IMG/VR virus record: IMGVR_UViG_3300027971_000090
Span: 1-41,395 of that record
DNA: 41,395 nt
Reading direction: 5' to 3' (one strand)
Origin: a virus
The position numbers and the translations under genes were made by a program. Shown here one piece after another: positions 5,380 to 37,262 of this stretch; position 1 is the stretch's first letter, and every line of letters starts with the position of its first letter. The notes under the pieces are model-generated. The model was not told where the DNA came from. It saw only the letters and a program-made list of their open reading frames with translations, and searched no databases.

Positions 5380-6060
5380 ATGAGTTTTAATTATTCACCG
5401 AAAATAATAAATGACAGCAGTTTAGTATTATATTTAGATGCTGCAAATAATAGATCATATCCTAAATCAGGTACTACTTGGAATGATATTTCAAAAGGAG
5501 CGAGTACTGCAACATTAACAAATGGACCGACGTTTAGTAGTGCTAATAATGGAAATATTGTATTTGATGGTGTAGATGATTTTTGCTCTACTACTTTAAT
5601 AAAGACTTTTACAAGCATGACAATACAAGTTTGGTTTTATAAAAACGGAGCATCAGTTTCATTCTTTTCAGGTTTAGTAGCAAGTAGGGGTGGAGCAGGT
5701 GGAAATATAACAGGGTTATTGATAAATGGTGGAGGTAGTGAATGCTTAGGATATAATTGGAATGATGCAGTAAATACATATAGTTGGAACTCGGGATTAG
5801 TATTACAGGATAATGCTTGGAACTTTTTATCTTTAACGGTGACTCCAACATTAGCAACAGGATTTTTAAATGGAGTATCTGCTACTAATACTGTAAATCA
5901 TGCATCAACAACTATAGCAAACTTAGCAATTGGGAAAGATTATATCTCTGAAAGACTTGTACGTGGTAGTATAGGATTAGTATTTATTTATGATAAAGCA
6001 TTATCTACAGCTGAAGTAGCACAAAACTATAACGCAACTAAAACAAGATACGGACTATAA
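5380..6060 (+). CDS. LamG-like tail adhesin 1
   Basis: This 226-residue protein has a concanavalin/LamG-like jellyroll pattern: an N-terminal LVLYLDAANNRSYPKSGTTW strand pair, then NGPTF...GNIVFDGVDDF, a core of alternating hydrophobic strands, and a C-terminal FIYDKALSTAEVAQNYNATK. These are hallmarks of LamG-type carbohydrate-binding domains on phage tails. It starts 8 bases after the giant fibre stop and is followed 3 bases later by a paralogue. No catalytic residues are evident. Binding of a surface glycan is inferred from the family. Confidence 0.8.
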   Translation: MSFNYSPKIINDSSLVLYLDAANNRSYPKSGTTWNDISKGASTATLTNGPTFSSANNGNIVFDGVDDFCSTTLIKTFTSMTIQVWFYKNGASVSFFSGLVASRGGAGGNITGLLINGGGSECLGYNWNDAVNTYSWNSGLVLQDNAWNFLSLTVTPTLATGFLNGVSATNTVNHASTTIANLAIGKDYISERLVRGSIGLVFIYDKALSTAEVAQNYNATKTRYGL

Positions 6061-6063
6061 ATT

Positions 6064-6768
6064 ATGGCAGGAAGAATAGCATATTACGGAAATATAGTCA
6101 AAGAAGGATTAGTCTTAAACTTAGATGCGGCAAAGAAAGATTCATATCCTGGATCTGGAACTGCATGGAGAGATATTTCAGGGACTACTATTACCGGATC
6201 ATTAATAAATGGGCCAACATTTAATACTTCGGGAAGCGGTACTATTGTATTTGACGGAGTAGATGATTATGCTAATTTAGGTAATATATTATTTAATAGT
6301 GCAAGTGCAACTACAATAGATATATGGGTTAGTTTTCCTAGTATGGTTGTAGGTAAATATCCTATATCTAAAGGATCAGCAGGAGATGGAATATATACTT
6401 TTATTATGTATACAGGACAAGGTCCTTCAGGAGGCGGTTCTAGTTATGTAAGATTTTCTATGGGTAATCAAGCCGGGACAATATCTACTAATATAGAATA
6501 TAGTTTTTTAAATTGGAACCAATGGTATAATTTTACTTATACATATAATGGTTTATTTGTAACTGGATATAAAAATGCGGGCACGCCCTTATCTAGCTCA
6601 TTATCTGGAAATTTACATACAAATACATCTCCTATAAGCTTAGGAGTGGATAAATATAGTGCCTATGGTGCCGCTAATATTTCAAGTTTTAAAATATACA
6701 ACAGAGCATTAAGCGCAGCAGAAATAACACAAAACTATAACGCAACAAAAGGAAGATTTGGACTATAA
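6064..6768 (+). CDS. LamG-like tail adhesin 2
   Basis: This 234-residue paralogue of the preceding gene shares GLVLNLDAAKKDSYPGSGT, NGPTFN, IVFDGVDDY and the ending IYNRALSAAEITQNYNATK. The central strands differ, as expected if the binding face is under diversifying selection. It is packed head to tail with its neighbours in one transcript. A single-domain LamG adhesin is the best reading; the ligand cannot be deduced. Confidence 0.8.
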   Translation: MAGRIAYYGNIVKEGLVLNLDAAKKDSYPGSGTAWRDISGTTITGSLINGPTFNTSGSGTIVFDGVDDYANLGNILFNSASATTIDIWVSFPSMVVGKYPISKGSAGDGIYTFIMYTGQGPSGGGSSYVRFSMGNQAGTISTNIEYSFLNWNQWYNFTYTYNGLFVTGYKNAGTPLSSSLSGNLHTNTSPISLGVDKYSAYGAANISSFKIYNRALSAAEITQNYNATKGRFGL

Positions 6769-6777
6769 AATAATAAT

Positions 6778-7044
6778 ATGGAATTACAAGATTACGAAAC
6801 AAGAAACTTTATGATATTTAATATATCAGAGCTATCTAATATTGATTTTACTCAAGTATTAGAAACATCAATTGATACTATAAGAAAGTCAGTAGATGAA
6901 ACTAAAACATTCGTTAAATGGGACGGTGCAATACCAACATGTGTTGAAACATTATTAACAAAAGAAGGACCATATACTTATGAAGAAATATTAGTTATAT
7001 TAGCTACAGCAGAATGGTCAGCTCCAATGCCTTTTAATATATGA
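6778..7044 (+). CDS. Small conserved adhesin-associated protein
   Basis: This 88-residue protein (LSNIDFTQVLETSIDT..., then TFVKWDG..P.CVETL and GPYTYEEILVILATAEW) sits between LamG paralogues 2 and 3. Its stop overlaps the start of LamG 3 in ATGA, so the two are probably translationally coupled. I associate this type of protein with tail-fibre operons of large phages, but its function is not known to me. An assembly factor for the adhesin next to it is a guess from position. A second small gene at 11333 occupies a similar place after another adhesin. Confidence 0.7.
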   Translation: MELQDYETRNFMIFNISELSNIDFTQVLETSIDTIRKSVDETKTFVKWDGAIPTCVETLLTKEGPYTYEEILVILATAEWSAPMPFNI

Positions 7045-7760
7045 GTACTTTAACAGGAGGACAAGGTAATATAATTACTAATGGATTAGTATTAAGATTA
7101 GATGCTGCAAATCCTAGATCATATCAATCAGGAAGTACAACATGGAATGATTTGAGTAGTAATGTAAAAAATGGGACATTAACTAATGGCCCGACTTTTA
7201 ATACTTCATCAAGCGGTGCTATTAGATTAGATGGTGTAGATGATTATATTTCAGTACCTGATATTATATGTACGGGAGTAGGATTTACAGGAACTATTGA
7301 AATTATAACTAACTGTACAGGAAGTTTAATTCACAATGAACGAGAATCTGATAACCAAGGAGACGGTTATTTTTACACAACATCTAGCGGAAGTTTAGCT
7401 ATTGGGGTTAATTCTAATGGTAATCCTCCATATACTTATTCTCTAACTTCATCAATACCAGGTAAATTAAATCAAGTTAATCATTATATAGCATCTTACA
7501 CAACACCTTCATCTACTGGTACTATGAGTGGTATATTAGGTACAAATGGAGTATTTGAAAGTCTTTCAACTTCAATTGTTGTAAATGGAACTATATCTAA
7601 TTATTTAAATATTAATATAGGAAGACAAAGAAACTTTACCTATGGAACATTTTATAGTAGCCCAGGAAATATATATATTGTAAGAATATATAATAGACGA
7701 TTATCACAACAAGAAATGTTACAAAACTATGACGCAACCCGAGCTAGATTCGGAATATAA
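7041..7760 (+). CDS. LamG-like tail adhesin 3
   Basis: This 239-residue protein is the third LamG-like member of the cluster, with GLVLRLDAANPRSYQSGSTTW, NGPTFN, IRLDGVDDY and the C-terminal RIYNRRLSQQEMLQNYDAT. The framework positions are kept while the middle is different from the other two. It begins inside the stop of the 88-residue gene (4-base overlap). Three tandem paralogues suggest alternative or cooperating glycan-binding tips on one virion. Confidence 0.8.
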   Translation: MSTLTGGQGNIITNGLVLRLDAANPRSYQSGSTTWNDLSSNVKNGTLTNGPTFNTSSSGAIRLDGVDDYISVPDIICTGVGFTGTIEIITNCTGSLIHNERESDNQGDGYFYTTSSGSLAIGVNSNGNPPYTYSLTSSIPGKLNQVNHYIASYTTPSSTGTMSGILGTNGVFESLSTSIVVNGTISNYLNINIGRQRNFTYGTFYSSPGNIYIVRIYNRRLSQQEMLQNYDATRARFGI

Positions 7761-7999: not shown

Positions 8000-9229
8000 A
8001 TGGCAAATGAATTCATAGCAAGAAACGGTCTTATAGCTCAAAATAATACTACTATTACTGGTAGTTTAACTGTAACGGGACCTATAACAGGATCTATATC
8101 AAGTGCATCATTTGCAACAACAGCATCTTATGCAATGAATGGAGGAAGCGGTGGCGGAATAATATCATTTCCATTTAGTGGTAGTGCTGTAATAAGTGGC
8201 TCATTAGAAATCAAAAACCAAGCACTTACATTACCATCCGGTTCAATATTTGCTCCCACTAATAATTTTACTACACTATATGCTAGCAGTTCGATATCAC
8301 AATCAACAAGCTTTAATATAACTAATAGTGCTCTTAGTTTTTATGGAACTGATCAAGATAGTCCTACTAGTATATATGTAACGTTTTATGTTATAACATA
8401 TTCAAATCAATACCACGCAGCAACAAGTGCTGGCTATCTTGTTAGTGATAGTAATTCTAATGGTTATACTCTTGTTATATCCCCTGGATCTGTTCAGTCA
8501 CCTGCTACTATTACTGGATATGATATTTATGGTAATAATGGTGTAAATTGGAAAAGACAAAATTATCTCTCAGCGGGGGCTGGTCCTTTTTATATAGGTA
8601 TTGATGACACTTTATCTGCGGGGTATGGTTGGGTTATAACTTCGTCATTACCAAATTTAACAAACTTACCAGTACCTGGATATAGTATTAATAATAATAT
8701 AGGTATTAGTAAATCTTCATCATTAAATGGTGTTTTAGATATTAACGGAAATACAATAATTACAGGTTCATTAAATGTAACAGCAGGTATAACAGGATCA
8801 TTATTAGGGTCAGCTTCATTTGCATCGACATCATCTTATTTAAATACATTAAATCAAAATGTATTTATAACTGGTTCTTTTACTATTACTGGTTCTACAA
8901 TCACTACCGGATCCGTTATAGAAAATACAAGAGCTTTATCTATAGCCTCAAACACAGCATCGTTAAATTTAAATAGTGGTAATTTCTTTACCTTACAGCT
9001 TGTGCCAAATACTAATACTTTTATTAATCCCAGTAATATTACACCTGGCCAAACTACAACCATGTTAATATCAACTACAGGATCCGCTACTGTATCATTT
9101 TCACCTTCCGTATTACAAATATCTGGATCATCATATATACCAACTATTACAACTGGAAAAGATTTAATAAATATGATTTCATTTAATACTTCATCTTTAT
9201 ACTTAGTATATATCAAAAATTTAATATAA
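8000..9229 (+). CDS. Tail fibre paralogue A
   Basis: This 409-residue protein starts MANEFIARNGLI, an attachment-type N-terminus, followed by TGSLTVTG..TGS and SASFATTASYAMNGG shaft repeats. Residues to about 103 and from about 208 to the end are closely related to the next gene, while the middle differs. The C-terminal part (SLNLNSGNFFTLQLV...TTGSATVSF...SSYIPTITTGKD) is a beta domain of a type common in phage fibres. It abuts paralogue B with no spacer (TAA then ATG). A receptor-binding or side-fibre role is inferred. Confidence 0.8.
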   Translation: MANEFIARNGLIAQNNTTITGSLTVTGPITGSISSASFATTASYAMNGGSGGGIISFPFSGSAVISGSLEIKNQALTLPSGSIFAPTNNFTTLYASSSISQSTSFNITNSALSFYGTDQDSPTSIYVTFYVITYSNQYHAATSAGYLVSDSNSNGYTLVISPGSVQSPATITGYDIYGNNGVNWKRQNYLSAGAGPFYIGIDDTLSAGYGWVITSSLPNLTNLPVPGYSINNNIGISKSSSLNGVLDINGNTIITGSLNVTAGITGSLLGSASFASTSSYLNTLNQNVFITGSFTITGSTITTGSVIENTRALSIASNTASLNLNSGNFFTLQLVPNTNTFINPSNITPGQTTTMLISTTGSATVSFSPSVLQISGSSYIPTITTGKDLINMISFNTSSLYLVYIKNLI

Positions 9230-10471
9230 ATGGCAAACGAATTTATAGCAAGAAATGGATTAATCTCCCTTAAAGATTCAACAATAACAGGTAGTTTAAC
9301 TGTAACAGGAACTATAACAGGATCTATATCAAGTGCATCATTTGCAACAACAGCATCTTATGCAATGAATGGAGGAAGCGGTGGTGGAAATGGGACATTT
9401 CCATTTAGTGGAAATGCGGTAATAAGTGGCTCATTAGAAATCAAAAACCAAGCACTTACATTACCATCTGATTCAATATTTGCCCCTACTAATAATTTTA
9501 CAACATTATATGTTAGTAGTTCAATATCACAGTCAGCTAGTTATAATATACTTACTGGTAGTATTAGTTATGGTGGAATATTTGATACTGCTTATGCTAA
9601 CTTAGATTCTACATTTTACATTATAGCATATTCAAACCAATACCATTCAGCTACTAGTCCCGGTGTTAGATTTACTGATGGTACTCTTCAAGATTATGAA
9701 ATTTATTTTAACACGGCATCAGTTCAATTACCTGCCGTTATCACTGGATATGATATATATGCCTATAATTGGCTTAATAGTACTTGGTATAGAAATATAA
9801 ACTTTCTTTCATATACTGGTAGTAATATGATAACATACTTATACAGTGGTATTTATAGTAATGTAGATGGATGGTATACAACCTCATCTTTATTAAGTTT
9901 AACAAACCTCCCGGTACCTGTATATAATACTTATAATAATGTAGGTATTAATAAATCTTCATTATTAAATGGAGTACTAGATATTAATGGAAACACAATA
10001 ATTACTGGCTCATTGATAGTAACTAGTGGAATAACAGGATCATTATTAGGAACAGCATCTTTTGCTTCAACAGCATCATTTGTAAATACTTTACGACAAA
10101 ATATAATAATAACTGGTTCATTAAATATAACAGGATCTGTAAATATAACAGGATCTGTAGCCGGAAATACAATAGCATTAACAATAGCATCAAATACAGC
10201 TTCATTAGATTTAAATAGCGGTAATTTCTTTACATTACAATTAGTGCAAGGTTCTAATACCTTTATTAATCCAACAAATATTAAAACAGGTCAAACAGCA
10301 AATATATTAGTATCAACTACAGGATCCGCTACAGTATCATTTCCATCTTCCGTATTACAAATATCTGGATCATCATATATACCAACTATTACAACTGGAA
10401 AAGATATAGTGACTATGGTTTCATTAAATACTTCTTCTTTATACTTAGCATATGTTAAAAATTTAATATAA
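9230..10471 (+). CDS. Tail fibre paralogue B
   Basis: This 413-residue tandem duplicate of the preceding gene has the same MANEFIARNGLI start, SFATTASYAMNGG shaft and NSGNFFTLQLV...SSYIPTITTGKD end. The DNA aligns with an offset of 1230 bases at the 5' end and 1242 bases at the 3' end, so the central segment differs by a net 12 bases and many substitutions. The pair looks like a duplicated fibre in which only the central segment has been allowed to diverge. The ATG follows the previous stop directly, implying translational coupling. Confidence 0.8.
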   Translation: MANEFIARNGLISLKDSTITGSLTVTGTITGSISSASFATTASYAMNGGSGGGNGTFPFSGNAVISGSLEIKNQALTLPSDSIFAPTNNFTTLYVSSSISQSASYNILTGSISYGGIFDTAYANLDSTFYIIAYSNQYHSATSPGVRFTDGTLQDYEIYFNTASVQLPAVITGYDIYAYNWLNSTWYRNINFLSYTGSNMITYLYSGIYSNVDGWYTTSSLLSLTNLPVPVYNTYNNVGINKSSLLNGVLDINGNTIITGSLIVTSGITGSLLGTASFASTASFVNTLRQNIIITGSLNITGSVNITGSVAGNTIALTIASNTASLDLNSGNFFTLQLVQGSNTFINPTNIKTGQTANILVSTTGSATVSFPSSVLQISGSSYIPTITTGKDIVTMVSLNTSSLYLAYVKNLI

Positions 10472-15436: not shown

Positions 15437-15808
15437 ATGAACCGTACACTACTTACTCAATTAATTAAAGAATGTTTAGAAGAAGTACAGAGCGAACAAA
15501 CTATGTGTAATTCTTGCGCTATTAAATTTCTTCAAGAACTTAAAGCTAATCCAATAATAGGAGAAGCTGAATACCAAGGAAGAAAAGTTTCATTAGGAAA
15601 ACCATTCTTAACTCCAGACGGCCCTAAGAAAAGATCAGTATATGTTAAGAATGAAAAAGGTAATGTTATTAAAGTTAACTTTGGCGATCCTAACATGAGA
15701 ATCAAGAAAAATATACCAGCTCGAAGAAAATCATTTAGAGCACGTCATAAATGCAATACAGCTAAAGACAGAACATCAGCTCGCTACTGGAGTTGCCGCG
15801 CCTGGTAA
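15437..15808 (+). CDS. Phage protein with C-terminal RARHxC...YWSC motif
   Basis: This 123-residue protein has two parts. Residues 1-21 (MNRTLLTQLIKECLEEVQSEQ) form an amphipathic helix of the type found at the N-terminus of several small proteins of large phages, and it resembles residues 50-70 of the next gene. The C-terminal half (SVYVKNEKGNVIKVNFGDPNM...RRKSFRARHKC...ARYWSCRAW) is a compact, basic, Cys/His-containing domain I recognise as recurrent in uncultured marine and freshwater phages but cannot name. Between them is IIGEAEY, compatible with a T4 prohead protease site, (I/L)xE followed by A/G/S. It is the first gene after the sheath terminator. Virion localisation is inferred. Confidence 0.7.
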   Translation: MNRTLLTQLIKECLEEVQSEQTMCNSCAIKFLQELKANPIIGEAEYQGRKVSLGKPFLTPDGPKKRSVYVKNEKGNVIKVNFGDPNMRIKKNIPARRKSFRARHKCNTAKDRTSARYWSCRAW

Positions 15809-15838: not shown

Positions 15839-16885
15839 ATGCCATATTCATATCATAAACAAGGTGACCAATATATCGTTACTAAAAAAGATACCGGTAA
15901 AGAAGTCGGCCGTACTAAAGGCACTAAAGAAGCATTAAATAAATACTTAGCAGCATTACATATAAATGCTAACGAAAATAAAACTATGAAAAAATCAGAA
16001 CTAACTAAAATGATTCAAGAAGTCATTAAAGAAGTATTATCAGAACGATCTACTAATAAAGTAAATGAGGCGGGAGATATGTTCGTGTCTGGCGGAAACA
16101 TTAATCCTGAACTAAGAAAAAAAGTAGAGCAGTTTGTTAAAAATATAGCTAAATATTATGACTACAGTGTTGATGATGCTTTCTTAGCTATAATGACTAT
16201 ACTTAAAGGTGGTATACGAAAAGAAACTGTAAATGAAACATATACTACAATTAAAATAGGAGATATAGTTTCTAAAAAGTATGCTTCGACAGACGAAGAT
16301 TATACTAAAGAATTTAAAGTAATAGATATTACAGGGACGAAAGCTACTTTACAAGATACAAATACTGGCAGAAAAACAGGAATTGCTCTTAGTGATTTAA
16401 CAAAAATTCCTATGAAAGAAGCAACTACAGATTATATGAAACGTAGAAAAGCTCAAGATGATTATGCTACTAATAAAAAAGATGCTCCTAAAAAACAAAG
16501 TAAAATGCCAGCATCTACAGGTAAGACAGATTATATGAAACGTCGTGAAGCAGAAAAGAAAATGCAAGAAGCAGCACCAGCTAAAGCTAAAGATTTAGGA
16601 ATATCAGAAAAAGGATATTTTAAAGTAAAATTTCCAGCAGGAACAAGAGAAGAAGCATTAAAGTCAATCGAATCATTACTTAAATCAGATCAAGCTAAGT
16701 ATCCTTCATTAAAAGTAGATATCATGCCTTTAAAAAAGGAAGAAGATAAAGATTTTGCAGTTATTAAGCTTAATGGTGAAGGAGCTCATACAGTAGGATT
16801 AAAAATGAAAGCTGCTTATAAAGATAAAGCAGGATTTAAAGGTGCAACCATCAAACCATATCATCCAACCTTTCAAAGTAAGTAA
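15839..16885 (+). CDS. Modular phage protein, possible internal start at 15986
   Basis: This 348-residue protein starts with a small domain (YSYHKQGDQYIVTKKDTGKEV...NKYLAALHIN) of a type frequent in phages. At M50 (ATG at 15986) begins MKKSELTKMIQEVIKEVLSER, the same kind of helix that starts the upstream protein, so either a two-module protein or two nested products are possible. The middle has a beta-rich segment (IKIGDIVSKKY...FKVIDITGTKATLQD) like an SH3/KOW-type fold. TDYMKRR(K/E)A occurs twice (about residues 200 and 229) in a Lys/Ala-rich linker, and a C-terminal alpha/beta domain (GYFKVKFPAGTREEALKSIE) follows. The function is unknown. Confidence 0.7.
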   Translation: MPYSYHKQGDQYIVTKKDTGKEVGRTKGTKEALNKYLAALHINANENKTMKKSELTKMIQEVIKEVLSERSTNKVNEAGDMFVSGGNINPELRKKVEQFVKNIAKYYDYSVDDAFLAIMTILKGGIRKETVNETYTTIKIGDIVSKKYASTDEDYTKEFKVIDITGTKATLQDTNTGRKTGIALSDLTKIPMKEATTDYMKRRKAQDDYATNKKDAPKKQSKMPASTGKTDYMKRREAEKKMQEAAPAKAKDLGISEKGYFKVKFPAGTREEALKSIESLLKSDQAKYPSLKVDIMPLKKEEDKDFAVIKLNGEGAHTVGLKMKAAYKDKAGFKGATIKPYHPTFQSK

Positions 16886-18576: not shown

Positions 18577-18918
18577 ATGTCAAAGACTATAAAATTAAAA
18601 TCTCTTCTTAAAGAAGGATATGCATGGGAACGTAAAGCAGGTAAGCCTTTACCAACTATTCAAGAAGTAATGGATGAATTCCAAGCTACCCAAAAAGAAG
18701 AAGTCCCTGTTAAAGAAGCAATGACTTTAAATGATGTAATATTTACAGAAAAAGGTAAAGAATTCTTTTTAGGTATGACAGATTGGTGTCAAGCACCTGA
18801 CTTTGATATGAGAGAATCTTTTAATGCTGAGTATTTAGATGGCTTTTTTAATAACGGTCAAGATATGATAAAAATGTTAGCTAAGACAGGATTAGTTCAA
18901 TCTAATAATCAATTATAA
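18577..18918 (+). CDS. Unknown small protein with short N-terminal helix tag (113 aa)
   Basis: The N-terminus MSKTIKLKSLLKEGYAWERK is a short amphipathic helix followed by L-K-E-G, compatible with an (I/L)xE/(A,G,S) protease site at residues 11-14. The body (LNDVIFTEKGKEFFLGMTDWCQ...YLDGFFNNGQDMIKML) is acidic and helical with no recognised motif. It is the first of four consecutive unknown proteins with tag-like N-termini. Virion packaging is a hypothesis from that shared feature. Confidence 0.6.
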   Translation: MSKTIKLKSLLKEGYAWERKAGKPLPTIQEVMDEFQATQKEEVPVKEAMTLNDVIFTEKGKEFFLGMTDWCQAPDFDMRESFNAEYLDGFFNNGQDMIKMLAKTGLVQSNNQL

Positions 18919-18930
18919 TAAACAATTAAT

Positions 18931-19596
18931 ATGAATTTAACATTAAACGAAAAGCTAAGATTTCAAAAACAAGCTGGAATCATTAATGAATCTCAATATA
19001 AGAAATTATTGAAAGAGGAAGAAGAAATGACTCCATCTATTAACTTTGATAGATTAAAAAAAATCTTAAATCAAGCTTCTGAAGTTACTAGTGGTAGCGG
19101 TAAAAAACTTCTTATTGGCAATATTGATAAATTTCTTAAATTTATACAATTGGCAATCACATCACTTGAAAACCAAGATGCAGATTGGGGTGATAAAGTA
19201 ACTGGCACGCCATTATTATATATACCATTAAACCGCAACTATAATGGACAAGAACCCGCTAAATGGGAAGCTTTTAATAAAGTTATGGAAAAATTCTCTG
19301 AAGCATCTTATGAGAGCGAACGTGGTACTATCCCTAAAAAAATTATAAATGAGCTACGACAAGCACTAACCGCATTACAACAGTATATTGATACATTTGA
19401 TGATGATTATTATTTAAAAGGTTTAAGTGGTAGAGAATTTGAAAAGAAAGAAATAAAAGATTGGTTTAAATTTGCGCCTATATGTCATATCTTAGTTAAT
19501 GATAATGGAAATGAATATACGGTTGAATTTAATGATGTAAACAAAGCACTTGAATTTGTTGATAGTTTGCCTGAAACGGCAGATATTATGCTTTAA
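18931..19596 (+). CDS. Tagged unknown protein 1 (221 aa)
   Basis: Residues 1-31 match the tags of the genes at 19703 and 21137: MNLTL at 1-5, Q12, A15, I17-I18, then E20-S21-Q22-Y23-K24-K25-L26-L27-K28 and an acidic run. The body is unrelated to theirs: helical segments (FDRLKKILNQASEVTSGSGKK, LRQALTALQQYIDTF) and a C-terminal alpha/beta part (CHILVNDNGNEYTVEF.DVNKALEFVDSLPE). No catalytic motif is seen. A terminator follows. The likely class is a packaged accessory protein carried by a common N-terminal signal. Confidence 0.65.
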   Translation: MNLTLNEKLRFQKQAGIINESQYKKLLKEEEEMTPSINFDRLKKILNQASEVTSGSGKKLLIGNIDKFLKFIQLAITSLENQDADWGDKVTGTPLLYIPLNRNYNGQEPAKWEAFNKVMEKFSEASYESERGTIPKKIINELRQALTALQQYIDTFDDDYYLKGLSGREFEKKEIKDWFKFAPICHILVNDNGNEYTVEFNDVNKALEFVDSLPETADIML

Positions 19597-19642
19597 TAAA
19601 CAATATAACAATATTACCTTTTCCCGAGGTTACTCCGAAATT

Positions 19643-19669
19643 GGCTTGCAATAAAATGCGGGCCTTTTT
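19643..19669 (+). terminator. Rho-independent terminator
   Basis: GGCTTGCA and TGCGGGCC form an 8-pair stem (two G-U pairs) around ATAAAA, followed by five T residues. It separates tagged protein 1 from tagged protein 2. Confidence 0.85.
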
Positions 19670-19676
19670 CATGATT

Positions 19677-19694
19677 GATATAATTATAATAAAT
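19677..19694 (+). promoter_or_regulatory. Candidate late-promoter motif
   Basis: GATATAATTATAATAAAT lies directly after the terminator and 8 bases before the ATG at 19703. ATAATTATAATAAAT is shared exactly with the site at 21772. The position after a terminator supports promoter function. Confidence 0.45.
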
Positions 19695-19702
19695 CATTTA
19701 AT

Positions 19703-21121
19703 ATGAACTTAACTTTAAAAGAAAGATTAGACTTGCAAAGAACAGCAAGAATCATTACAGAATCTCAATATAAACAGCGATTATCTGAAGATACTCAACG
19801 ATCAGGTAATTCATATAAAGATTATCAATTAACCATTACGTATAAAAACACAAAAAAAGAAGTTACTTTTGATATAGATTCTAAACCAACTACTTTTACA
19901 GGTAAATGGGATGCAGATGATATAATAGAAATTTTTCAAGATAATTATATTAAGCCTGAAGGTAATATTATATTAACATTAAGAGATTCACGTGGTAAGA
20001 TATTAAAGATAGGTAATATCGTTGGATTTCAAGATGGTAAAGATATGATGATTAATGATATGCCAATAACCCAAGATTTAAAAGAACTTGAAAAAGAAAA
20101 ATCTAATAAATTATCTAACAAAGAACAAGATATTGTAGATGATTTACTTAGTTCTTTAAATGAAGGATCATTTGATTCTATAATAGATAAAATAAAAACT
20201 TATGCAAGGCGAGGATTATTAACTGCAGGTATTGCATTAGCAGTATTAGGTAGCCCTTCATTAACTGCCGCTCAAAGAGACGTTTTACGTAAAGAGCCTG
20301 CAATTGAAAATGTAATGAAAGCAAGTCCAGAAGCTAAAAAAGAATTAGCAAGTCAATATGATTGGTGGCATTCTTATTTGCAATCACCGCAATATTTACA
20401 GAGATTACAAAAAGAATTTCCTGGTAAAGATAAAAAATGGATCGAAGGTGAAAGAGATGTTAGACTTAGTAATTTACAAAGCGTAAAAAATAAAACGCAG
20501 TTTGTTAATGCAATAGCAAAAGAGTCAGGATATGTATCTGGAATGTTTATACCTAAAAAATATGAAGGCGAGCGATGGGATTATGGGCAACAAAAATGGG
20601 TTAAAAGTAAATATGAGCCTGCTTCAGATAAAAAGGGATATGATAAACAAGGAAATATTTATATTGAAAAAGGTTTTAATACCCCTGGATATGAAACAAT
20701 ACCAGCCCATGAATTAGGTCATGCAGTTGATGCTGGCGGTACTAGAATACCTGATGCTACTAAAGAAAAAATTTATAAATATACAGGCGGCGGTAGTCAA
20801 TCTAAAGAATATAAGTCTGGTGATAAAGAATTTGATTATTATACGACACCTTCAGAATTTATTAACAGACTTCAACCTGTAAGATATTTATTACAAAAAT
20901 CAAAAATATACGATGCTAAAACTAAAGACTTTACTGAACAAGATTATAATAAAATGATGAATAATCCAGAGATTCGAGGTAATGAACATTTTAAAGATGT
21001 TATGAATTCATTAAAAGGTAATAGTCAAGAAAAAAAGAAAAATTTTATAGACCTTATGAATACGATTGCATCAAATAATATAAAAGTACCGACACAACAA
21101 GACATATCTAATATAGCATAA
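19703..21121 (+). CDS. Tagged putative zinc metallopeptidase (472 aa)
   Basis: Residues 1-24 carry the shared tag (MNLTL..., I18-T19-E20-S21). At DNA level the tag differs from the one at 21137 at only a few positions, whereas the bodies are unrelated. Residues about 33-140 form an unknown beta-rich domain. L152-N153-E154-G155 could be a second processing site. Residues about 168-190 are hydrophobic (LLTAGIALAVLGSPSLTAAQ), like a membrane or signal-like segment. H336-E337-L338-G339-H340 is a zinc metallopeptidase motif (HExxH) followed by AVDAGG, with E385 in TPSEFINRLQPVRYLL as a likely third ligand. It may act on host wall or envelope protein after injection, or in virion maturation. The substrate is unknown. 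Confidence 0.75.
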   Translation: MNLTLKERLDLQRTARIITESQYKQRLSEDTQRSGNSYKDYQLTITYKNTKKEVTFDIDSKPTTFTGKWDADDIIEIFQDNYIKPEGNIILTLRDSRGKILKIGNIVGFQDGKDMMINDMPITQDLKELEKEKSNKLSNKEQDIVDDLLSSLNEGSFDSIIDKIKTYARRGLLTAGIALAVLGSPSLTAAQRDVLRKEPAIENVMKASPEAKKELASQYDWWHSYLQSPQYLQRLQKEFPGKDKKWIEGERDVRLSNLQSVKNKTQFVNAIAKESGYVSGMFIPKKYEGERWDYGQQKWVKSKYEPASDKKGYDKQGNIYIEKGFNTPGYETIPAHELGHAVDAGGTRIPDATKEKIYKYTGGGSQSKEYKSGDKEFDYYTTPSEFINRLQPVRYLLQKSKIYDAKTKDFTEQDYNKMMNNPEIRGNEHFKDVMNSLKGNSQEKKKNFIDLMNTIASNNIKVPTQQDISNIA

Positions 21122-21136
21122 AATATAAACACTAAT

Positions 21137-21757
21137 ATGAACTTAACATTAAAAGAAAGATTAGATCTTCAAAGAACAGCAAGAATCATTACAGAATCTC
21201 AATACAAGAAATTATTAAAAGAAGAAGAACAAGTAGATGCTAAAGATATTATTAAAGCATTTAAAGATTCTATACAAATAATAAAACAGGGCGAATCTAA
21301 AATTACGCCTAGTCCTAAAGACGGCGAGTTAGATGAGTCATTAACCTTAGCTGCTGGATTAGTTGCAAGTGCTCCGGGATTGTTAAGCATTTTAGGCAAA
21401 TCAATAAATGGTTTAGTTAATTTCTTTTCGATTGGCGAATATACTACAACTATAGTTGGTGATGTACTTAAAAAGTGGGGAGAAGAATTAGAAGATGCGT
21501 ATATAGGTGGTATTGGGGCTTTATTACAAAAAGCATTCCCAGAAAAATATCAACTTCAAAATGCTCATGATAAGTCTTCAGAATTGTACGATATGTCGCA
21601 TTTTATATATATGAGTTTATTAGCAGCCTGTGCTTTACATGGAGCAGCAGGATTACAACATGCACATTCTTTACTTGCTGCAACAGGAGAAGGTAGTTTA
21701 GTTGGACTTAAATCTAAGGAAATATTAGATTTAGCAGCTAAGATAAATGCTGCCTAA
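21137..21757 (+). CDS. Tagged hydrophobic protein (206 aa)
   Basis: The N-terminal 31 residues are the shared tag (MNLTL, I18-T19-E20-S21-Q22-Y23, KKLLKEEE). After L65-D66-E67-S68 there is a long apolar stretch (LTLAAGLVASAPGLLSILGK, residues 69-88, continuing to about 100) and a second at about 151-190 (FIYMSLLAACALHGAAGLQH), separated by a charged amphipathic segment. This is the profile of a membrane-active or pore-like protein. With the tagged metallopeptidase immediately upstream (15 bases), it suggests a co-packaged pair. No named family is recognised. Confidence 0.65.
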   Translation: MNLTLKERLDLQRTARIITESQYKKLLKEEEQVDAKDIIKAFKDSIQIIKQGESKITPSPKDGELDESLTLAAGLVASAPGLLSILGKSINGLVNFFSIGEYTTTIVGDVLKKWGEELEDAYIGGIGALLQKAFPEKYQLQNAHDKSSELYDMSHFIYMSLLAACALHGAAGLQHAHSLLAATGEGSLVGLKSKEILDLAAKINAA

Positions 21758-23176: not shown

Positions 23177-25288
23177 ATGGCAAGTAGAACACCTGAGGAC
23201 ATAAAAAGAGATAAATTAGCAGATATTTATGAACAGCAATTAAAACAAGATGCTGCTAGAAATGACCTCGTCAATAAAACGGCAAAACAGCGTGCTGCTG
23301 CTGAAAAAGAATATCAAAAACTATTAAAAAATGAGCTAACGATATTAGAGCAAATTGCTAAATTAAAACAGCGAGAGGAAGATTCTTTAGATTCTATATC
23401 AAGAAAGTTACAAGATCAAATTAAATCATTAGCAGATAAAACTGATAAAACTGATGAAGAAAATGATCTATTAAGTAAATCTAATATACTTCAAACTAAA
23501 ATTTCAGAAGGAATTAAAACCGGTACAGCTAATACAAGAGATTTAGTAAATGAATATAAAGATGTTATTGACTCAATGCAAAAAGCAATTAAATTGCAGA
23601 ATGAATCTGAGAAATCTGCAAAAGAATTTTTATCAGATATTACTACCCGAATATCACAGATACCATTAATAGGCGGAGCATTATCAAAAGGATTTAATAC
23701 TTTTTTAAAGTCACCTAAAGGAACTGCATTATCTAAAAAAATTGCAAACAAATTATTTAATCCAGGATCAGCTGCAGAGTCTAGTAAGATGATGTCAAAT
23801 GCTGGTACAGGTGCAGCTACAGTTGCTGCAGGTATTGCTGTTGCAAAAAAAGGATTTGAATTAACTACAAAAGAATCTGAAATTAGAAAGGATATTAGAA
23901 GAACATTAGGATTAACTAATTCAGAAGCTATCGACTTTAGGGATACTAGTTTAAGTATGTTGCGAGATACTAATTCAATGGCTACTACACAAGAAGAAAT
24001 CTTAAAAGCTTCTAGCGAACTTCAAGATACATATGGTCATATGGCAAATTCTAATACAAAGTTAATGAATAGTCAAATAACATTAACTAAAGGATTTGGT
24101 CTTCAAGCCCAAGAAGCTGAATCTCTTAATGTATTAGCAGATGCTACGGGTCAAAGTTACGATGAACAATTAACATCGACTGTAGCAATGGCTCAAGCAG
24201 TAGGTAAAGTATCTAAATTTGGTATGAATGTTAATAAAATTATGGCGGAAGTCGCAAATTTATCAGCATCTATTAAAGCAACTTTAGGCGGTAGTGCAGC
24301 AGCAATGGCTAAGGCAGTTATTCAAGCTAAATTAATGGGTACGACATTGCAACAAATGGATGGTGCTGCTGACAATTTATTAAATATCGAATCATCTATA
24401 GAAGCTCAAGTTACTGCTCAGTTAGTAACAGGTAAAAATATTAATTTAGATAGAGCAAGATTATTCGCTTTAAATAATGATTTAGTTGGCGTAGCAAGAG
24501 AACTAACAAAACAAGGAATCGATTATGCGTCATTCGGAAAAATGAATCGCGTAGAACAACAAGCAACTGCTGCAGCAATGGGAATGCAAAAAGATGAGTT
24601 TGCAGATATGTTATTAAAGCAAAAAATGTATGCTGCAGTTGGGGCAGATATTAATGCAACAGATCAAGCACAAATAGATGCTGCAGAAACTCAGATATCA
24701 TTAAAAGCAAAAGCAGGCGATGCCGACGCTAAAAAATATATTGCGGATCAAAAAGCTTTAAGCGTTCAAGAAAGAATGACGGCAGCTGTAGAATCTATGG
24801 CAGGATTTTTTAATATGTTAGGCCCAATTATAATGGGATTGGGTATAGGCATAACTATATTAGGTGTAGCACTTGCAATAGCTGCTATCGGTGCTATATC
24901 GTTAATGAGCGCATTAACCCTCGGAATTGGTGCAATAGCAATTGCTGGGGCTATAGGTTTGGTAATGGGAGTAGTTAATGGATTTACACAAAGTGTATCT
25001 GATGGTGAAGCGCCAGCATCAAAAGGGCCATTTACTATTACAGATAAATTTGGAGCTACTGCAGTAACGCAAACAGGAGATGGCGTTGTTGTATCTCCTA
25101 ATATATCAAGAGACTCAGCACAGTCTAATACAAATACCGTAGTATCAAATAATAAAGAAACTAATGATTTGTTACGACAATTAATTGCAAAGGTAGATCA
25201 ACCAACTAAAGTATATGTAGGCATGGATGCTACTAATAAAATTTATAATCAAGGATCAATGAATAAAAATCTTCAAGCTGAAGCATAA
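23177..25288 (+). CDS. Tape measure protein
   Basis: This 703-residue protein has the classic layout: a charged coiled-coil N-terminus (about residues 15-150), a glycine/alanine-rich stretch, long helical segments (IMAEVANLSASIKATLGGSA), a strongly hydrophobic block at about 547-605 (IIMGLGIGITILGVALAIAA, then IGAIAIAGAIGLVMGV) and a polar C-terminus (LLRQLIAKVDQPTKVYVGMD). It sets tail length and probably forms or triggers the DNA channel. At about 0.15 nm per residue this predicts a tail near 100 nm, in the T4 range. It sits between chaperone-like and baseplate genes, as expected. Confidence 0.88.
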   Translation: MASRTPEDIKRDKLADIYEQQLKQDAARNDLVNKTAKQRAAAEKEYQKLLKNELTILEQIAKLKQREEDSLDSISRKLQDQIKSLADKTDKTDEENDLLSKSNILQTKISEGIKTGTANTRDLVNEYKDVIDSMQKAIKLQNESEKSAKEFLSDITTRISQIPLIGGALSKGFNTFLKSPKGTALSKKIANKLFNPGSAAESSKMMSNAGTGAATVAAGIAVAKKGFELTTKESEIRKDIRRTLGLTNSEAIDFRDTSLSMLRDTNSMATTQEEILKASSELQDTYGHMANSNTKLMNSQITLTKGFGLQAQEAESLNVLADATGQSYDEQLTSTVAMAQAVGKVSKFGMNVNKIMAEVANLSASIKATLGGSAAAMAKAVIQAKLMGTTLQQMDGAADNLLNIESSIEAQVTAQLVTGKNINLDRARLFALNNDLVGVARELTKQGIDYASFGKMNRVEQQATAAAMGMQKDEFADMLLKQKMYAAVGADINATDQAQIDAAETQISLKAKAGDADAKKYIADQKALSVQERMTAAVESMAGFFNMLGPIIMGLGIGITILGVALAIAAIGAISLMSALTLGIGAIAIAGAIGLVMGVVNGFTQSVSDGEAPASKGPFTITDKFGATAVTQTGDGVVVSPNISRDSAQSNTNTVVSNNKETNDLLRQLIAKVDQPTKVYVGMDATNKIYNQGSMNKNLQAEA

Positions 25289-25303
25289 TAGACTATCATA
25301 AAA

Positions 25304-28300
25304 ATGTCAATACTAGATTTAAAATCAAACTTATCGAACTTTAGAAAGCCGTCGACAGTTAAAGAACAGGAGAAACAAAAATTAAAAGAATCTCCGATCA
25401 TTAAACCTGTTTATAGCACGTCTAATACACTTAAAAATACTCCTGATATAAAGATAAATAAAGTAGATAATTCTACGTCTATTCAAGTATTAGGGGCTAA
25501 AAAAATAGATTATAAACTATTCTCTATCAACACTAATAGAGGAAGAGGAATACCTGCTATATCTACATTATTTGGAAAGGATATTTTAAATAAAAAATCT
25601 TTATTTAAGAAGTTTACTCCTGGTAATATAGTAAAGGTATCTGAATATAAAACTCAAAAGCCCGTTAATATTACTAAAGTATCTAATTTTGTTAAAATTA
25701 CTCCTATTGGTATTCAACATATTTCTACTTTCAAAGCAATACTTACAATCTTAAAAAATAAAGTAAGTGAGTATAAGCAAGTATTTCCTAAAGCATTACC
25801 AAAGATTAGCGAGTATATAGATCAATCTCCAAGAGCATTGCCAAAGATTAGTGAATACATTTATCAATCTCCTAGACCTTTGCCAAAAATAAGTGAATAT
25901 ATTTATCAATCTCCTAGAGTATTATCTAAACTAAGTTTATATAAAGATCAAAGACCTAATATTTTAGATAAGTTAAGTCTCTATAAAAAATTGGCTGCAA
26001 ATGGTTTTGATGATTTACAATCAGGGGCTAGGGGATTTACATTATATCAAACCATAACCCAATATCTAGGATTAGATACTGGTACATTAACATATACATA
26101 TCCAAAGACAGTAAAGTTTGGAAGATTAAATAATAGATTATCATTTACTGGTCAAGGATTAAAAGGTTTTGATGATTTAACATCTGGCGCTATAGGATTT
26201 ATTGAAGGGCAAAAATTAAATACTGTAGCAAAAGTATCGCAATATTTAGGAATACTCGGTAATACATATACATATCCAGTAACAGTAAAAAATGGTAATA
26301 TTTTAAATAGGAGTCAATTTTTTTCAGATATTAAACATGGATTTCTTTTAAATGGGACAGAAAGAAGATTTGATGGTGATTTAGCAGCGACTCACTTTTA
26401 CAGAACATATTATACTGATAAAAAGCCATATACCTCATCTACAGGTATAAATGGTGATGATTTACGAACTTACTTTACTAGAACTAATTCTCCTTCTGCT
26501 AGAGATTGGATGTATACTAAATTTAATTTAAGAGATAATTCATTTAATACTGGGTTAGCTTTATTTAATCAGCCATTAATCTTAACTGGTATACAGCGTA
26601 AAGACTTTGTAAAAACAGGATTTTATCCATGGGAGACTTGGAACTTTGATGATGGATTTATTAGGGGTGGTGTTGTAACATCAACTCAAAGGGCAATTGT
26701 AGATGTTCTTCGTATTGGAAAATGGATGGCTTCTGCAAAAGGATTATTATTTATAACGCGTCAAGCAGGCCTTCAAGCTTCAGCTCCTAATACAGAAGCT
26801 GACCCTTTTGTAGGAAAACGTGCTGGTAATGGCGCATTAACATTAATAAGTTCATTAGCTAATACTGCTACTCAACATTTGGGTATTAGATTTAGAAAAG
26901 ATGCTTTTTTACTTAAAACTAGAACTACATATTCTAGTGTGATGTTAGCAAAGCAGATAGCAGAAACTGAAGATCCGACTTTAACTCAAAATAGATTAAG
27001 AAAACTTTACGAAAATTTAATCTTAGGAACCGGCACTTATTCTTTATCTGGCCCGAAGGGAATATTCGGAGGCCCTCAGTCAGTATATGGCATTGGCTCG
27101 ACAACTATTAGAAGGGTTGTTAATAGTGTAGATGATTTAAGTTATAATTATTTGAAAACTCCAATAAACGTTGTTAGTAATGATTTTAATTCTGACGATA
27201 CTAAATATGTCAATGATCCTTATATACGATTTCCTAGTATAACAAACTTCGTACCTAATTATATGAATAGCGGGCCGGGTAATAGATATGTTTTAAGAAT
27301 TGCATTACCCCAAAACGAATATTTTGATAGTATAAACTCATCTAATAATCAAAATATAAATGGTAATTATTATACTTTAGGGTATGGAGGTATTGGTACA
27401 CAAGGAGATATAAATAAAGGCTTAAATACTACTAACGTTACTAACTTTCTTCTTAATGATACATTTAAAGATGTAAAATGGATTCCTACCCTAGGTAGAT
27501 TTAGCGGAGATATAACAATTCAAAATTATACCCAAACTAGTCAACATATAAGAAAAAAACTTAAAGTACCAGATTATGGCAGACGTGGTAAAGATTTAAG
27601 AAATCCATTAGATGGGCCTTTTATGAATAAATATACTCCAGGCGGCCCTGGTATGGCAGATCCTATTTGGAAGATAAACCAAACAGATGAAGAAGCCGTA
27701 GATGATTTTATAAAATTCATGTTTCATGATTTAAATACTAATGAAAGATTTAGATTTAGAGCTTACATAGAAAATGTATCTGAAGATTTTAGTCCCGAAT
27801 GGCAAGAAGTAAAAATATTAGGAAGGGCAGATAGTCCTTATATTTATCAAGGATTTAGTCGTACTGTACAAATATCATTTAAAGCCGCTGCATTATCAAG
27901 AGCAGATTTAATGTTAATGTGGGACCAACTAGAAAGATTAGCTAAAACGACAGTTCCAAAGTATAATGATACTTATAAAATGAAAGGCCCGTTAATTAAA
28001 TTTACTTTGGGTAATTGGTTTATAAATACACCAGCATTTATTAAATCTTTATCATATACAGTTGATAATGATACGCCTTGGGAAATTAACTTAAGTGATT
28101 CTGGAATATATTTAGGAGACAATAAAGAATATAATGTCGGCGAATTACCTATGACAGTATCAGTTCAAGTATCAATGCAAATATTTGGGGAAGTAAGACC
28201 GGCCAGCACTCATACACAACCTACGCCAGATGGTATTACAGAAAGTACACATTATGGTGCAGGTCATTTATATCCATTAGGTGTAGATAAATTAAGAACG

Positions 28301-35630: not shown

Positions 35631-37262
<1,632 letters not shown>

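Follow-up and report, generated by a model that had tools for sequence, protein, structure and literature searches.

Cargo is loaded via a scaffold-derived peptide in engineered fusions to the scaffold protein of phage P22. In T4, unrelated proteins (IPI-III and Alt) carry short N-terminal propeptides, the capsid targeting sequences (CTS), which are cut off by gp21 (PMC9026906, PMC3012670). These propeptides comprise 10–19 residues, gp21 cuts after the motif L/I-X-E, the internal proteins co-purify with gp22, and Alt is trimmed at both ends (PMC9026906). Inner-head propeptides have also been described for phiKZ and SPN3US, where diverged paralogues (gp53/gp54) have identical N-termini that the prohead protease removes after a Glu motif (PMC5694885).

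Here, we analysed a tag that is shared by three proteins of an uncultured phage. A preliminary description had found the same module of ~30 residues at their N-termini and, by comparison with T4, had proposed that it is a packaging signal for ejected effector proteins.

The three tagged genes and their surroundings

The window, i.e. the whole stretch of DNA that was analysed, is an entire IMG/VR record of 41,395 bases, which is itself a fragment. Its early genes encode tail fibre-like, sheath, tube and baseplate proteins, and later follow genes for SSB, a recombinase, GroEL, a 5'-3' exonuclease and a helicase-like protein. Family or similarity matches were the basis for assigning tube, baseplate, SSB and GroEL, and the other genes were assigned from their order and reading. 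The head module (the gp21/gp22/gp23 region) is not present in the fragment. As a complete reference we used Immutovirus immuto, a cultured phage of Flavobacterium (sp. LMO8) with a genome of 160 kb, in which the order of the polA-like, SSB, RecA, exonuclease and helicase genes is the same as in the window. The phage-encoded GroEL (35634–37262) has ~58–60% identity to its best matches in the phage collection. Two tandem tail-fibre-like paralogues (8000–9229 and 9230–10471) have nearly the same N-terminus (MANEFIARNGLI) and diverge in their later parts, and three lectin-like paralogues (5380–6060, 6064–6768 and 7041–7760) have a common start pattern; the product of the first of these matches Pfam family PF13385.

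The tagged genes are located on the plus strand at 18931–19596, 19703–21121 and 21137–21757, and a search of the record with the tag found it at exactly these three places. As had been described, the proteins share their N-terminus and diverge afterwards: 18 of the first 34 residues are invariant (M1, N2, L3, T4, L5, E7, L9, Q12, A15, I17, I18, E20, S21, Q22, Y23, K24, L27 and E29). The near-identity of the tag DNA over about 70 bases in the second and third genes, with a stop of the similarity thereafter, was also confirmed. There, 66 of 72 bases are identical, followed by 10/21 and then 69/207, which is near background for AT-rich DNA; upstream of the tag, the identity is 18/60. The first and third copies are identical at 55 of 72 bases, with the peptide motif kept.

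The first tag (18931–19023, plus strand) reads MNLTLNEKLRFQKQAGIINE/SQYKKLLKE/EE, where slashes mark predicted protease cuts here and below; it contains the core described further down and two L/I-x-E sites, INE and LKE. Its body (19024–19596, plus strand) is an alpha/beta-looking protein of unknown family, for which a single homologue was found in viral contigs, on a near-identical contig (L004). The second tag (19703–19792, plus strand), MNLTLKERLDLQRTARIITE/SQYKQRLSE/D, precedes a body (19793–21121, plus strand) that consists of an N-terminal part, the conserved cassette KEQDIVDDLLSSLNE/GSFDSIIDKIKTYARRGLLTAGIALAVLGSPSL with a predicted second cleavage at SLNE/G (position ~20164), and a putative zinc metallopeptidase region with the motif HELGH. 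This motif was spotted by eye only and no Pfam family matched the body; at its C-terminus, there is a weak match to PHROG 24249, 'tail protein' (8e-9). The third tag (21137–21229, plus strand), MNLTLKERLDLQRTARIITE/SQYKKLLKE/EE, is followed by an all-helical hydrophobic protein (21230–21757, plus strand) from a family of at least seven members. Immediately before the hydrophobic region, this family has an invariant Glu (E67, ELDE/SL), at which the protein is possibly cut a second time, and this would release a membrane-active domain. At pLDDT 63 and 52, respectively, the AlphaFold2 models of the C-terminal part of the 19703 protein and of the 21137 protein did not have the quality needed for a fold search. 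Entry or takeover of the host would be plausible roles for both the HELGH metallopeptidase and the hydrophobic protein.

Recurrence and exchange of the tag

Searching IMG/VR with the tag yielded 34 and then 69 loci, and a profile search in all frames detected 121 distinct tagged frames, with up to six tag matches per long record. The consensus is M-N-K-E-x-L-R-M-Q-x-L-A-G-I-I-T-E-S-Q-Y-K-x-x-L-x-E, in which Q, A, G, I, T, E and the last E are conserved at ≥90% among 59 otherwise unrelated representatives. At the N-terminus, the core pattern occurs in 86 of 1525 called genes compared to 0.25 expected from shuffles. When the tag was stripped, the 107 bodies of the first locus set fell into 50 BLAST clusters, and a broader core search resulted in 190 bodies in 86 clusters. 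The tag is thus a swappable module on diverse bodies (~50–86 unrelated clusters), as had been suspected, and does not belong to one orthologous family. The preliminary description had called it an N-terminal tag, which holds for the three window genes and for most copies elsewhere; some copies are C-terminal or internal. The 59 representatives gave three weak Pfam matches, one PHROG match, one PADLOC match and nothing more. Almost no tagged body matches a known family, and the earlier view that they are ejected effectors may apply.

In the annotated phage collection, the window tag had no match at E≤10, and the consensus tag matched only Immutovirus at the same threshold. A tag search of genome contigs gave one match, a contig of a Flavobacteriaceae MAG, which is probably viral since it also carries the scaffold gene. 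A full-text search for the tag string in open-licence papers gave no match. As papers rarely spell out sequences in their text and the search was confined to open licences, this counts only weakly as evidence of novelty. We looked for virion proteomics of this phage group in the literature and found none.

The cassette of the 19703 protein (DLLSSLNE/GSFDSIIDKIKTYARRGLLTAGIALAVLG) is also present in immuto gp3, there behind MENFDLKKFLVENRLTYNSKLINE/G, a second type of tag that four immuto proteins have in common. Relatives of this body carry either MENFDLKKFLVENRLT..LINE/G, which is common to four Immutovirus proteins, or MKQHELRQLIREEISKIINE/K, which precedes the cassette in L140–L142. The three tag types on this body family all end in L/I-x-E. 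The second tag type of immuto, MENFDLKKFLVENKLTxNSKLLKEG, forms the N-terminus of four different immuto proteins (L038–L041; 1803–2318, 103806–104354, 117631–118632 and 118632–118931 of NC_055915). In the window, the neighbouring gene at 18577–18918 (plus strand) has a candidate head propeptide of another kind, MSKTIKLKSLLKE/GYAWE, and a comparable candidate, MAKDNKIKLRGLLNE/AFG, is found in the gene next to gp21 in the relative G007. Candidate propeptides of a third type may be present in two further plus-strand genes, 15437–15808 (MNRTLLTQLIKECLEE/VQSE/Q) and 15839–16885 (MKKSELTKMIQEVIKEVLSE/RS, at residues ~50–70).

The candidate L/I-x-E propeptide ends of the genes at 15437–15808, 15839–16885 and 18577–18918 are LIKECLEE, VIKEVLSE and LKSLLKE. 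The C-terminal cassette of the first of these genes, FRARHKCNTAKDRTSARYWSC, also forms the C-terminus of an unrelated 452-aa protein with several domains (L144), and is another movable module. A large multi-domain protein of 1231 aa (L143, 4291 onward) begins with a nucleotidyltransferase-like part, has two HExxH motifs and contains the 19703 cassette (DIVDDIL...KSYGRKGML).

The scaffold C-terminus and predicted protease sites

The first half of the tag, E-x-F/L-x-R-M-Q-K-L-A-G-I, contains the core F-x-R-M-Q-K-L-A-G-I, which equals the motif at the very end of the scaffold protein of these T4-like phages. The scaffold is here the product of the gene that immediately precedes the gene for the gp23 capsid protein (the gp22 position). 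Scaffold ends of the RMQKLAGL/I type were found in all tagged records that cover the head module (n=8): SRWQKLAGIIK in immuto, NRFKKLAGLK in G007, ARMQQLAGLRK in G035, ARMQRLAGLRK in G036, NRFQKLAGII in G037, ARMQRLAGIN in G038, LRMQKLAGLL in G040 and ARMQKLAGLI in G043. For an unbiased test, we queried IMG/VR with a scaffold segment that lacks the C-terminus and counted those homologues that include the stop codon (n=78). The core forms the end of 72 of these (0.06 in shuffles), and near-variants of it are found in the remaining six. Furthermore, a profile of cargo tags that included no scaffolds matched just three places in the 160-kb immuto genome, namely the end of the scaffold gene and two cargo genes. 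Tagged proteins of immuto are gp83 and the product of 25061–25456.

The scaffold motif is also present in Microcystis phage Mel-JY01 and in a 484-kb uncultured phage, where no N-terminal tags were found at E≤1. Thus, the scaffold motif alone does not imply tags. This pattern fits the scenario that the scaffold motif is older and was later copied to cargo genes. From the sequences, the best reading is that the tag would be derived from the scaffold C-terminus.

The second half of the tag, I-T-E/S-Q, fits the T4 gp21 motif L/I-x-E. Up to five residues downstream of the core, L/I/V/M-x-E is found in 149 of the 153 N-terminal tags (ITE in 120, INE in 12), which do not amount to 149 independent cases since the downstream ITE partly reflects shared ancestry. 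The motif L/I-x-E lies upstream of the core in 63 of 68 scaffolds (P-I-V-E/S-N) and in 19/19 C-terminal tags, of which six look like scaffolds that the filter missed. It flanks the core on both sides in 18 of 19 internal copies (e.g. ALNE/AFRKMQKLAGIKLNE/N); among the 19, one matches by chance and belongs to a PhoH-like protein. The placement counts are not independent trials, as many copies share a common descent; the C-terminal and internal copies nevertheless span roughly ten unrelated gene families. The background is 10% per 6-residue window and 26% per 14-residue window. The predicted propeptides are most often 17 or 20–22 residues long. In the tagged bodies outside the tag, L/I-x-E is not enriched overall (0.85x) and only L/I-N-E is raised (2.9x vs 1.7x in other genes), modestly and partly owing to one family; we therefore do not lean on this enrichment.

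The capsid proteins of the group have an L/I-x-E-type site at the T4 gp23 cleavage position (QLITE/SS in G007, QIVSE/A in immuto), and its proteases, which include gp70 of immuto, have such sites near their C-terminus (SLNE/G, MNE/S and INE/G). Wherever a tagged record covers the head module (eight of eight), it encodes both the gp21-type protease (PF03420) and gp23, and the two are jointly missing from the fragments. The match to the scaffold terminus and the placement of the gp21-type site, which would split the core from the cargo irrespective of the end that carries the tag, lend independent support to the capsid packaging that the preliminary description had proposed.

Function of the tag and comparison with known systems

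We consider it likely, on the basis of sequence comparison, that the tag is a removable head-targeting (capsid-targeting) propeptide, and we infer packaging, cleavage, retention and ejection of the cargo as follows. During prohead assembly, the core would bind the partners of the scaffold C-terminus, either other chains of the scaffold or the capsid protein at its inner face, and the tagged proteins would thereby enter the prohead core. During maturation, the gp21-type protease would cut after Glu20, often with a second cut at a further L/I-x-E (LLKE/E, SLNE/G or ELDE/S), which would free the cargo from the core. The freed cargo would remain in the head and would probably be ejected with the DNA into the next host. 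The tags would be exchanged among cargo genes as DNA cassettes. We cautiously favour the wider view that a large set of uncultured T4-like phages uses a natural cargo-loading code, in which the terminal peptide of the scaffold is reused as a portable, end-independent and self-removing address tag. With its core and flanking protease site at either end or in the interior of a protein, it would bring dozens of unrelated effector families into the head, besides at least two other tag types that follow the same cut logic.

The main and serious rival explanation is that the tag is a SHOCT-like helical hairpin by which the tagged proteins oligomerise or dock on each other or on the membrane, such that ITES is a turn and N-cap and not a cut site. 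SHOCT (PF09851) is a short hairpin whose pattern G-x-I-T-E-x-E/Q-Y/F-K resembles the tag, and it was the only Pfam family that responded (13.2 bits, E 0.08), with a score of up to 19.2 bits (E 2.7e-4) in one genome. The AlphaFold2 model of the tag consists of a helix (5–14), a loop and a helix (20–31), at a pLDDT of ~70 from a shallow alignment. In addition, SQYKxxL past the predicted cut is conserved in many tags, which is unexplained by a peptide that ends at Glu20. However, all matches are under the SHOCT cut-off of 27 bits, and the tag is mainly N-terminal and tied to protease motifs and the scaffold. The scaffold and several cargo C-termini stop at LAGI or LAGIITE and thus have no second helix, and distant tags retain RMQKLAG-ITE whereas the second half is lost. 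Neither the upstream, downstream or two-sided placement of L/I-x-E nor the scaffold terminus is accounted for by a hairpin. We thus regard this explanation as unlikely. A hairpin could still be the fold of the full tag and is compatible with a targeting role if it binds the scaffold.

Alternatively, the tagged proteins could be components of the tail or of tail lysis, and the tag could be a signal for assembly of the tail or for secretion. This is suggested by the location of the three genes between the tail-tube gene (17622) and the baseplate gene (21806) and by the PHROG 24249 match of the 19703 protein. We considered this and rejected it as very improbable, since the matching motif belongs to the head scaffold, the tagged genes of relatives are scattered over many places, including directly beside gp21, and there is no tail-structural family among the 59 tagged representatives except for the PHROG 24249 match. 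A recombination hotspot or translational-enhancer DNA with no function at the protein level, which the near-identical tag DNA of 19703 and 21137 and its sharp stop might suggest, was likewise rejected as hardly credible, because the peptide is conserved across genomes and even between the more divergent first and third copies, and C-terminal and internal copies can have no role in translation start.

If the tag is a head-targeting propeptide, it would provide a sequence handle to predict head-travelling proteins, including ~86 body clusters that are almost wholly without annotation, and a natural peptide with which proteins could be loaded into T4-like capsids. It would also suggest that T4-type cores recruit cargo by mimicry of the scaffold's own terminus. 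The idea is testable in the cultured phage Immutovirus immuto.

When comparing the tag to known systems, it resembles the P22 fusions in that the loading peptide is scaffold-derived; here, it is natural and protease-removable, and coat binding is a prediction. The inner-head propeptides of phiKZ and SPN3US differ in their S-x-E or A-x-E motif and their length of often >100 residues, and no scaffold match is reported for them in the passages of PMC5694885 that were consulted. Phage polyvalent proteins (PMC5512222) are similar as head-packaged multi-domain proteins with metallopeptidase domains, and a relative of the 19703 cassette is part of the 1231-aa multi-domain protein mentioned above; in contrast, the window proteins are small, and they matched no family model of polyvalent proteins or metallopeptidases. 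The T4 CTS are the known kind to which the tag corresponds. Both are short N-terminal propeptides with a terminal L/I-x-E and a predicted affinity to the scaffold core, and both are carried by unrelated proteins of T4-like phages that possess a gp21 protease. As the tag has no match anywhere in the T4 record (E≤10), we say that it works like a CTS and do not count it as a homologue. Unlike the CTS, its core equals the scaffold's own C-terminus, a feature that is absent from the C-terminus of T4 gp22, and it also occurs at C-termini and internally and on far more families. Compared to the T4 capsid targeting sequences, the tag is thus new in that its sequence differs, its core is identical with the end of the scaffold, and it is used at either end of a protein.
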